Below, piece by piece: positions 2,611 to 25,286 of a DNA stretch of 64,000 nucleotides; position 1 is the stretch's first letter; each line of letters opens with the position of its first letter. Below the pieces are notes generated by a model. The model was not told the origin of the DNA. It worked only from the letters and a program-made list of their open reading frames with translations, and made no database searches. The position numbers and the translations under genes are program-made. This DNA is from Seleniivibrio woodruffii (GTDB lineage: Bacteria; Chrysiogenota; Deferribacteres; Deferribacterales; Geovibrionaceae): assembly GCF_029267515.1 (NCBI RefSeq), contig NZ_JAJUIS010000001.1:310001-374000 (forward strand), in the 5' to 3' direction.

Positions 2611-2614
2611 TTTA

Positions 2615-2692
2615 AAACCGTGGGGGTGCCCGATGCGGCTGAGATATACCCCTAAGACCTGATTCGGGTAATGCCGACGTAGGGAACGGACA
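2615..2692 (+). promoter_or_regulatory. TPP (THI-box) riboswitch
   Basis: The conserved TPP aptamer sequence is readable: GGGGUGCCC, then GCUGAGAUAUACCC, then ACCUGAUUCGGGUAAUGCC and GUAGGGAAC. The closing stem pairs 2618-2621 (CCGT) with 2686-2689 (ACGG). It sits between a good promoter and thiC, and is followed at once by an intrinsic terminator. Binding of thiamine pyrophosphate is therefore expected to stop transcription before thiC-thiE-thiL. Confidence 0.95.
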
Positions 2693-2709
2693 TTTAGCAA
2701 GGCTTTATG

Positions 2710-22742: not shown

Positions 22743-24263
22743 TTATTCCTGTATGAGACGGTATTGAAGGGATTCGAGGATGTGTTTTGCACCGATATGC
22801 TCTGACCTGTCTAAATCTGCTATTGTGCGGGCTGTTTTAAGCACTTTTGAATAACTTCTGGCGCTTAGATTGTATTTCTTTGCCGCGGTTTCCAGCAGTT
22901 TAGATGTTTTTTCGTCGAGGATGCAATATTTTTTGGTTTCCTTTTCGCTCATTCTGCTGTTGAAGCGGGTTTTTGAATGTTTAAACCGAGCCGACTGAAC
23001 CGCGTGGGCATGTGCAACCCGCCCGCGTATGGCTTCGGATGGTTCACCGTCAGCCATTGCCGCAAGCTCGGCTATGTCTGCTGAACCGACCTCCACGTGG
23101 AGGTCAATCCTGTCCATAAGGGGACCCGAAAGCCTCGATCTGTATTTCTGTATCTGTGACGGCGAGCAGGTACACTCCTTCTGTTTGTCGCCGAGGTATC
23201 CGCAGGGGCAGGGGTTCGCAGCGGCAACAAGCATAAAGTTTGCAGGATACGTCACTGTGCGTCCGGCTCTGGAAACAGTGACCTCTTTGTCTTCAAGTGG
23301 CTGGCGCAGGGTTTCCAGAACGCTTCGGGGGAACTCCAGCAGTTCGTCAAGAAAGAGTACGCCGTTTGAGGCGAGGCTCACCTGACCAGGAATCGCTTTT
23401 GATGTTCCGCCGATGAGGGCTATGCTGCTGCTTGTGTGGTGCGGGCTGCAAAATGGTCTGTGCACTGCAAGGTCGCGTCCTGAGCGGATCAGTCCTGCGA
23501 CCGAATATATCTTTGTTGTTTCAATAGCTTCTGTAAGTGTCATATCAGGAAGGATGGTGGGCATCCGGCGGGCAATCATGGTTTTCCCGCTGCCGGGAGA
23601 GCCTATCATAAAGAGGTTGTGCATCCCCGCCGCGGCTATCTCCGCGCATCTTCTGGCGGCGAACTGCCCCTTTACGTCGGAGAAATCCACGTCATATTCC
23701 ATTACGGATGTGAAGAGCGACGCTTTGTCCAGAGTGTGCGGAGTTCCTTTGCAGTCGTTGTTGATAAATTCAGTGACGGATGAGAGATCTTCGAAGGGGA
23801 AAACGTCTATGCCGTCTATAACGGCAGCCTCGTCTGCGTTATCCGAAGGCACTATGAGCTTTTTAAATCCGGCTTTTTTAGCACCCTCCGCAATAGGGAG
23901 TATTCCGCCAACGGCGCGCAGTTTTCCGTCCAGTGAAAGTTCCCCTGCGAAAAGGCAGTCTTCGGGGACAGACTTCACCATTCCCGCGGAGCAGGTTAGC
24001 CCCACGGCAACAGGCAGGTCGAAGTGCGTACCCTCTTTCTTTATGTCGCCGGGTGCGAGGTTAACGGTTATTGGGTGTGCGAACACGTTGAGGTTCATAT
24101 TCTTCATAGCTGCTTTAACTCGGTCGCGGCTCTCCTTTACGGCTGTTTCAGCCAGTCCAACCATGTTGAATGACGGCAGACCGACGGCTCCTATGTCCGT
24201 TTCAACCTCAACAATCTCCGCCTCTATACCGTTTACCAGTGCACTGTATACTTTTGAGAACAT
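22743..24263 (-). CDS. comM: YifB/ComM-family Mg-chelatase-like AAA+ ATPase
   Basis: 506 residues: an N-terminal Lon-protease-like S5 fold domain (about 1-170; GIEAEIVEVETDIGAVGLPSFN), an AAA+ module with Walker A GSPGSGKT near residue 220 and LFLDELLEF as Walker B, a cysteine segment CPCGYLG...CTC, and a C-terminal helical part. ComM is a hexameric helicase that extends branch migration during integration of transforming DNA. The frame runs 84 residues further upstream without homology, and a promoter sits just before the chosen ATG. The ATG has no Shine-Dalgarno. Confidence 0.94.
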   Translation of the reverse strand: MFSKVYSALVNGIEAEIVEVETDIGAVGLPSFNMVGLAETAVKESRDRVKAAMKNMNLNVFAHPITVNLAPGDIKKEGTHFDLPVAVGLTCSAGMVKSVPEDCLFAGELSLDGKLRAVGGILPIAEGAKKAGFKKLIVPSDNADEAAVIDGIDVFPFEDLSSVTEFINNDCKGTPHTLDKASLFTSVMEYDVDFSDVKGQFAARRCAEIAAAGMHNLFMIGSPGSGKTMIARRMPTILPDMTLTEAIETTKIYSVAGLIRSGRDLAVHRPFCSPHHTSSSIALIGGTSKAIPGQVSLASNGVLFLDELLEFPRSVLETLRQPLEDKEVTVSRAGRTVTYPANFMLVAAANPCPCGYLGDKQKECTCSPSQIQKYRSRLSGPLMDRIDLHVEVGSADIAELAAMADGEPSEAIRGRVAHAHAVQSARFKHSKTRFNSRMSEKETKKYCILDEKTSKLLETAAKKYNLSARSYSKVLKTARTIADLDRSEHIGAKHILESLQYRLIQE

Positions 24264-24269
24264 ACTGCG

Positions 24270-24299
24270 ATTATACAGATATTTTTGAAATATGTGCAA
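24270..24299 (-). promoter_or_regulatory. Promoter giving a leaderless comM mRNA
   Basis: Minus strand: TTGCAC (24299-24294), 18-bp spacer, consensus TATAAT (24275-24270), then 6 bases to the ATG at 24263. Confidence 0.68.
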
Positions 24300-24356
24300 T
24301 TCATTTAATTTTCCCACTTGCGGATTTGGCTCGGCGGCACATATTAACATTATAAG

Positions 24357-24536
24357 TTGCAGCCTAGGCAGTAACGAAGCCCCCCGAACAGAAGACGGTA
24401 TCTGAGAAGAAGTTACTACGGATTTGAATGGTTTCGCGAAAGGTTCGGGACAGGAGAAAGACCAATGGGTAATGAGTTGACGCCACCCAACGTCTAAAGC
24501 CCCGCCAATCAGCACAGATTGCGGGGCTTTCTACTT
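24357..24536 (+). ncRNA. Candidate structured noncoding RNA
   Basis: About 175 bases on the plus strand between two minus-strand genes, with no open frame of note. A TATAAG box (24351-24356) could start it, and a strong terminator ends it. Helices I can draw: AGTAAC (24370-24375) with GTTACT (24412-24417); CCCGAAC (24383-24389) with GTTCGGG (24443-24449); and a TTTCGCGAAA hairpin (24432-24441). The first two cross, so they would form a pseudoknot or be alternative states. I compared it mentally with 6S, SRP RNA, tmRNA, RNase P and common riboswitches and found no match. It could be a lineage-specific RNA. Confidence 0.45.
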
Positions 24537-24539
24537 TTC
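24496..24539 (+). terminator. Strong intrinsic terminator
   Basis: Arms 24496-24510 and 24517-24530 form a GC-rich stem (AAAGCCCCGC with GCGGGGCTTT) around a 6-base loop, followed on the plus strand by a T-rich tract. It ends the candidate RNA. On the minus strand the hairpin lies just after the acetolactate decarboxylase stop and may end that transcript too. Confidence 0.82.
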
Positions 24540-25286
24540 AACCTTCTGAAGCTCGCCGCTTCTGTCTTTCGATAAATCTATATCTTTGAGTCCCCTTTCA
24601 GGGAGAATCAGCGTAAGCCTTCTTTCAGTTTCTGCGGACACACTTCCATCCGCCATTTCAAATCCGAGTATGTGACCGCCGTATGTCTTTGAACTGTCGA
24701 TGAAATGCAGGTGATATCCGCCGACGTTTATCCCTTTAACGAACGCGGGCAGTCTGTAACCGACTATGGTACCACTGATGTTTTCATACTCGAAAACCGG
24801 CTGTGTTTTGACCACCTCCGCAAGGGGCGGATACGGTTTTGCCTGTGCCGGCACGGAGCGCACCTTCATCCTTTTGAAGTTCCCTTCCGCCTTAACGGCG
24901 CAGAAAACGTTCATATCGGGTACTTTTTCATCCACTAGCTTTTCAATCTCTTCGAAAGTGGCGGGTTTATCTATATTGACAGTGATTTCCGGTTCGAAGA
25001 ACGATACGGATGCGAAAGGCGTTGTGATGTTCTCCGGAGTGTATATCCTGCCGTCCGCCTTCGCCTGATATACTTTGCCGTCAAGGACTATCATTTCCCC
25101 TTCCAGCCTGTCGAACGTGCCTATTCCGAAATTCCCGTATTTCGTGAGCTTCGAGGTCTTTTCAGATCCGTCGTAGTCGCCCGCAAGAAGTGCATCAATG
25201 GTAGATATCTGGGTTATTGCTCCGGTGTCATGTGCACATCCGGCGAGCGCTGCGGCAAAAACAAAGGACAGCAGAAGCCGTTTCAT
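24531..25286 (-). CDS. Acetolactate decarboxylase with lipoprotein signal
   Basis: 251 residues. The first 17 form a lipoprotein signal with lipobox L14-A-G-C17. The rest matches alpha-acetolactate decarboxylase: STIDALLAGDYDG, YGNFGIGTFDRLEGEM (E64), TPFASVSFFEP, and zinc-site histidines H192, H194 and H205 in GYHLHFID and GGH. The family converts 2-acetolactate to acetoin. Secreted forms are known, but membrane lipid anchoring is unusual, since acetolactate is made in the cytoplasm. Start overlaps the small lipoprotein stop by 4 bp; a LysR gene precedes both. Family call is firm, physiological substrate less so. Confidence 0.88.
   Translation of the reverse strand: MKRLLLSFVFAAALAGCAHDTGAITQISTIDALLAGDYDGSEKTSKLTKYGNFGIGTFDRLEGEMIVLDGKVYQAKADGRIYTPENITTPFASVSFFEPEITVNIDKPATFEEIEKLVDEKVPDMNVFCAVKAEGNFKRMKVRSVPAQAKPYPPLAEVVKTQPVFEYENISGTIVGYRLPAFVKGINVGGYHLHFIDSSKTYGGHILGFEMADGSVSAETERRLTLILPERGLKDIDLSKDRSGELQKVEK

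Follow-up and report, generated by a model that had tools for sequence, protein, structure and literature searches.

Several small bacterial transcripts are known that stand as independent units and carry a short ORF, among them Spot 42/SpfP, SgrS/SgrT and VcdRP (PMC11188072, PMC8672173). Spot 42 encodes a 15-residue protein, which binds Crp (PMC11188072), and VcdRP encodes a protein of 29 residues (PMC8672173), indicating that products of dual-function RNAs this small can be real. The small RNA described here would share with these systems an independent small transcript and a short translated ORF, both of which are predictions in our case, but it showed no sequence relation to any Rfam family, belongs to another phylum and has an ORF of 10-11 codons that lies directly against the terminator. 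The 5' hairpin of the ompA transcript reportedly stabilises its mRNA. Stem-loops in the 5' region, as in recA and vacA, and strong Shine-Dalgarno sites stabilise bacterial mRNAs (PMC7509114). Our RNA resembles these messages in having a predicted hairpin directly at its 5' end or close to it, upstream of a strong Shine-Dalgarno site. In contrast to them, 0-2 nt separate this hairpin from the Shine-Dalgarno site, and the RNA is a tiny message whose 5' domain has a length between about 60 and about 510 nt in the different relatives.

In type III toxin-antitoxin RNAs a terminator is preceded by repeats with a length of about 36 nt. One relative of the Denitrovibrio group (G011) likewise has 35-nt repeats arrayed in a terminator-ended RNA, but such arrays occur in some Denitrovibrio copies only and are missing from the Seleniivibrio copies and from G007. 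As, in addition, no toxin gene lies downstream on the same strand, this class was rejected. In the literature on the phylum Deferribacterota we found no small-RNA or transcriptome study, and the RNA characterized here would add a small RNA family in this phylum.

A probable small RNA gene divergent from comM

The window, i.e. the whole stretch of DNA that was analysed, comprises 64,000 nucleotides of the 2.83 Mb genome (35 contigs) of Seleniivibrio woodruffii. The original prediction placed an unassigned structured RNA on the plus strand of this stretch, between comM and an acetolactate decarboxylase gene and opposite in strand to both. The gene coordinates and strands agree with this: comM (22746-24263, start codon at 24263) and the gene of the acetolactate decarboxylase-like protein (24531-25286), the convergent neighbour of the small RNA, are both encoded on the minus strand, and the segment between them is intergenic. 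Based on its own promoter and terminator, its occurrence at the same place in two genera and the lack of an Rfam family, we consider it very probable that a real small RNA gene, as yet unassigned, is present at this locus. The predicted transcription unit of about 185 nt extends from the promoter to the U-tract (24351-24535, plus strand) and exists as a single copy in its own genome; its DNA is kept in all five genomes of the genus and its architecture in Denitrovibrio. Folded by itself, the 180-nt segment does not stand out (z = -1.39), and the gene is therefore argued from its conservation, its promoter and terminator, and the ORF.

The unit is preceded by a -35 element TTGCGG (24318-24323, plus strand) and a -10 element TATTAA (24342-24347, plus strand). 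In eight of nine copies, from two genera, a spacer of exactly 18 nt separates a TTGCRR-type hexamer from a -10 element that reads TATTAA, TATTAG or TACTAA, while the ninth, the first G011 copy, has a possible variant promoter that was read by eye (TTGCAT, 17 nt, TATATA). A possible -10 box had been proposed before. A promoter is supported by the comparison of copies, but the conserved pair is TTGCGG-18-TATTAA, and the TATAAG at 24351, which is also conserved, sits at the transcript start expected at about 24353. On the other side, the strong terminator of the original prediction is borne out by a folding z of -6.5 for 24496-24530, with none of 200 shuffles equally stable. The intrinsic terminator (24496-24535, plus strand) has a stem that starts within the stop codon of the ORF described below, and its z ranges from -5 to -8.5 in all nine copies. 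The stem is maintained while its sequence changes, and paired changes are visible between copies.

Searches against Rfam 15 gave no match at gathering thresholds, and under relaxed settings only weak terminator-like or chance matches were obtained, the best sub-threshold score being 17.8 bits compared to a gathering score of 60. 6S RNA (RF00013) was rejected, as the only 6S RNA of the genome is located at another locus (C13) and 6S lies elsewhere in 12 of 12 genomes of the family. At the window locus and in the relatives examined no gene follows downstream on the same strand; the small RNA is therefore not a leader. A riboswitch or attenuator leader was rejected accordingly, the adjoining gene being convergent with nothing to regulate on the same strand downstream.

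Distribution and conservation

In a nucleotide search the segment was matched as DNA in all five genomes of the Seleniivibrio group. An RNA with the same parts, missed by the nucleotide search, occupies the same place in Denitrovibrio, so that the small RNA is divergent from comM in five of five Seleniivibrio-group and three of three Denitrovibrio-group genomes. Conservation in close relatives, on which the original prediction depended, is thus found across two genera. As the Rfam searches gave no hit to a common family either, the proposal of an RNA survives both conditions that had been named as refuting it. The nine copies compared comprise five from the Seleniivibrio group and four from the Denitrovibrio group, two of the latter in G011, where the whole small-RNA gene is tandemly duplicated (G011:C11, L115 1750-2920, minus strand). 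The second G011 copy had been left out of covariance model building; it scores 63 bits with the model (E = 9e-18) and repeats every part, i.e. promoter, helix, ribosome site, ORF and terminator. This untrained tandem copy is the strongest single test that the predicted parts belong together.

Among the 51 genomes searched in the phylum with the strict pattern and the covariance model, no other genome contains a convincing copy. Besides the real copies, the strict pattern hit a single, unrelated coding sequence per genome in three genomes from another genus of the family. The covariance model yielded weak matches of at most 32 bits outside the real copies, and those inspected were terminator-like and devoid of the ribosome site and the short ORF. 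The remaining two genera of the family have other genes upstream of comM. A scan of 84,980 species returned 41 pattern matches, in which the short ORF and the terminator were present only in four from Deferribacteraceae, and none of 12 pattern matches in the viral contigs scanned was of this kind. As judged from these searches, the small RNA is new, lineage-specific and confined to the Seleniivibrio-Denitrovibrio branch.

The gene on the convergent side differs among the relatives (the decarboxylase gene, a small lipoprotein-like gene or a histidine kinase gene), while comM is constant. Judged by this variable gene order, the decarboxylase gene is outside the story. From the Shine-Dalgarno site to the stop codon, identity to the window copy amounts to 100, 87, 89 and 87%, compared to 87, 82, 79 and 75% for comM DNA.

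The 5' domain

In the Seleniivibrio group the 5' domain consists of a small 5' hairpin and a subsequent hairpin domain closed by CCCGAAC/GUUCGGG. The 5' hairpin, GUUGC-A-GC/GC-A-GUAAC (24356-24375, plus strand; arms 24356-24363/24368-24375), has a mean pair probability of 0.98-1.0 in four genomes, and G002 harbours an equivalent hairpin of different sequence (AGCUG...CAGUU). In alignment A5 it is fully paired in four of five sequences, a count that understates the hairpin because G002 is misaligned there. The hairpin domain (24383-24449, plus strand) ends 2 nt before the Shine-Dalgarno site. Its closing helix, 24383-24389/24443-24449, comprises seven pairs with 91% of cells paired; it had been drawn as the second helix in the original prediction. 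Four relatives have it in complete form, and the fifth retains part of it.

The Denitrovibrio 5' hairpin starts no more than a few bases away from the expected 5' end and runs right up to AGGAG. The closing helix reads GCUGCGG/CCGCAGC, and GCUACGG/CCGUAGC in G009; two of its eight pairs show compensatory change. The hairpin interior varies in length, with about 45 nt in G007 and about 500 nt in G011 as the extremes, and the Denitrovibrio 5' domains measure 60, 230, 300 and 510 nt. The first G011 copy contains 11.5 copies of the self-complementary 35-nt unit, for which a long rod is the predicted fold. For this domain the folding z lies between -2.4 and -3.2 in the four copies of the Denitrovibrio group and between -0.75 and -3.1 in those of the Seleniivibrio group, where the window copy does not exceed shuffles in stability (z = -0.75).

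The original prediction had combined the closing helix with a first helix, 24370-24375/24412-24417, that would cross it as a pseudoknot. The window sequence allows both helices, of which the second is conserved. The first, in contrast, shows no two-sided change and is incomplete at its outer positions in two of five sequences; its 5' arm is at the same time the 3' arm of the better-kept 5' hairpin, with which it competes, and Denitrovibrio has no crossing counterpart for either helix. Since the first helix is unsupported and its 5' arm is taken by the 5' hairpin, the pseudoknot was rejected as the resting structure. It is conceivable as a transient form, but we consider it very improbable that the locus is explained by a pseudoknotted structured RNA. 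From the proposed structured RNA, the small RNA gene, the terminator and the second helix are retained, while the crossing-helix pseudoknot and the absence of a reading frame are not.

A short ORF between the ribosome site and the terminator

The Shine-Dalgarno site AGGAG (24452-24456, plus strand) is identical in all nine copies and located 8-9 nt before an ATG. This opens an ORF of 10 codons with the sequence MGNELTPPNV and the stop codon TAA (24465-24497, plus strand), whose ATG GGT and frame are kept in nine of nine copies and which we infer to be translated. The earlier statement that the segment has no useful reading frame is thus probably wrong. The five ORFs of the Seleniivibrio group have 10 codons (MGNELTPPNV twice, MGHEVTPPNS, MGSEVTPPNS and MGFEVTPPNV), those of the four Denitrovibrio-group copies have 11 (MGFEEESELFQ, MGSVEDSELLS, MGSVEDLESIF and MGLEEDSELFS), and inside each genus the frame is free of indels. 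In every copy the terminator's first base pairs adjoin the stop codon, which is TAA or TGA, or overlap with it. Between the genera most of the RNA has diverged and the best-kept part is the Shine-Dalgarno site, the spacer and AUGGGU. Dinucleotide shuffles produce a Shine-Dalgarno site with a closed ORF of at least eight codons in about 1-6% per sequence compared to nine of nine real copies, a frequency that is not an independent probability because the nine copies are related. The weight of the evidence for the putative ORF is rather that site, spacing and frame survived while the rest changed.

Within the Seleniivibrio group the majority of codon changes are non-synonymous and variation is not concentrated at third positions, which gives no codon-level sign of coding in an ORF that is too short to judge such a signal. 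The peptides of the two genera have little in common beyond MG and acidic residues. A hairpin inside the ORF, UGGGU/ACCCA (24466-24489, plus strand), is predicted for the window copy; its arms are identical in five of five genomes of the genus and it is restricted to the Seleniivibrio group. Within the genus, this RNA hairpin could equally explain the conservation of the ORF region. In Denitrovibrio no equivalent pairing is found although the frame is retained, and this argues for coding. The Shine-Dalgarno site is partly paired in several predicted folds. Some copies have a longer upstream ORF in the frame of the ATG; it was rejected as it has no start codon and is cut by a stop codon or frameshift in others.

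Discussion

In its predicted anatomy the RNA corresponds to a very short message protected at both ends, composed of a hairpin, a ribosome site, 10-11 codons and a terminator. With modest confidence we lean towards a micro-mRNA or dual-function RNA. The polymerase would start near 24353 and stop in the U-tract near 24535, and the 5' hairpin and the terminator may shield both ends from RNases. Ribosomes would load at AGGAG and make a tiny peptide starting with MG. Another component of the cell could then be the target of this peptide, of translation as such or of the RNA. Should the 10-codon frame be translated, few conserved bacterial messages with a promoter and terminator of their own would be shorter. 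The 5' domain has grown rapidly through self-complementary repeats while all other parts were kept, which is a natural experiment on what a leader of this kind tolerates.

A non-coding trans-acting small RNA that pairs with mRNAs, perhaps with Hfq, is a possible but doubtful explanation. The ORF would then be a by-product of a G-rich pairing region around AGGAG...CCAAUGGGU, consistent with Hfq being encoded at two loci of the genome, with the standalone unit of promoter and terminator, and with an ORF region that is kept at all codon positions within the genus and contains a hairpin. It does not account for the exact ribosome-site spacing of the conserved block in nine of nine copies, or for a frame and stop codon that are kept though the remaining ORF differs between the genera. 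Moreover, small RNAs that block ribosome sites usually use a C/U-rich seed, while the motif found here resembles a ribosome site. The contact of stop codon and terminator stem in all nine copies, together with a convergent neighbour on the terminator side in the genomes examined, would also suit a translation-coupled attenuator, in which a ribosome at the stop codon blocks termination and read-through yields an antisense RNA to the convergent neighbour. However, no same-strand gene follows and the convergent neighbour varies, hence there is no constant regulated gene, and we regard this explanation as improbable.

CsrA is encoded in the genome, and AGGAG can occupy a small hairpin loop in G004 and G002 (GGAC/GUCC and GGAA/UUCC), as would be expected for a CsrA-binding sponge that presents the motif in a short hairpin loop (GGAC-AGGAGAAA-GUCC). 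In the window copy this little hairpin is broken, and GGA motifs are not enriched in any copy (three in the window copy compared to a shuffle average of 3.7). The RNA is therefore not an obvious CsrA sponge; the CsrB/RsmZ type was rejected and we hold a sponge function to be highly unlikely. Finally, the segment might contain no functional RNA and represent a conserved intergenic remnant with the comM promoter region, given that the comM-side gap is fairly conserved among the closest species, too. This is scarcely credible, as promoter, ribosome site and terminator are kept between the genera with their distances preserved, the duplicated copy retains all parts, and the terminator stem is kept as its sequence changes.

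A more specific form of the micro-mRNA is speculative and rather unlikely. It would be a lineage-specific message with a double-stranded 5' rod directly adjoining the ribosome site. The rod could grow by self-complementary 35-nt tandem repeats, from a 5' domain of about 60 nt to one of about 510 nt between sister species, alongside a retained frame of 10-11 codons that ends on the terminator. The lifetime of the RNA, or its termination, would depend on the length of the rod and on whether the tiny frame is translated. If true, this architecture would be new among bacterial small RNAs.

Further observations concern the neighbourhood of the RNA and the genomes analysed. A promoter-like sequence of comM, TTGCAC-18-TATAAT, is located at 24270-24299 of the window (minus strand), and its hexamer TTGCAC is similar to the TTGC-type -35 element of the small RNA. 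Since the end of its -10 element is 6 nt away from the start codon, a leaderless comM transcript is possible in this and the two closest species. In G007 (Denitrovibrio) two copies of a 257-bp repeat with TCATTGCGAG...GCAATGACGAAGCAATCTC lie directly downstream of the small RNA (L043 1590-2106), perhaps a mobile or dispersed repeat. G008 contains a repeat array with the spaced unit TTTCTAAGCTGCCTGTGCGGCAGTGAAC (L026 509-2020), which is CRISPR-like as read from repeated translations. Besides the ordinary hfq, the second Hfq locus of the source genome (G000:C11:245422-245853, minus strand) has a single open frame of 185 codons that contains two Hfq-like stretches. The sole Rfam match at gathering level in the window is a TPP riboswitch at 2612-2702 (plus strand, 70.8 bits).
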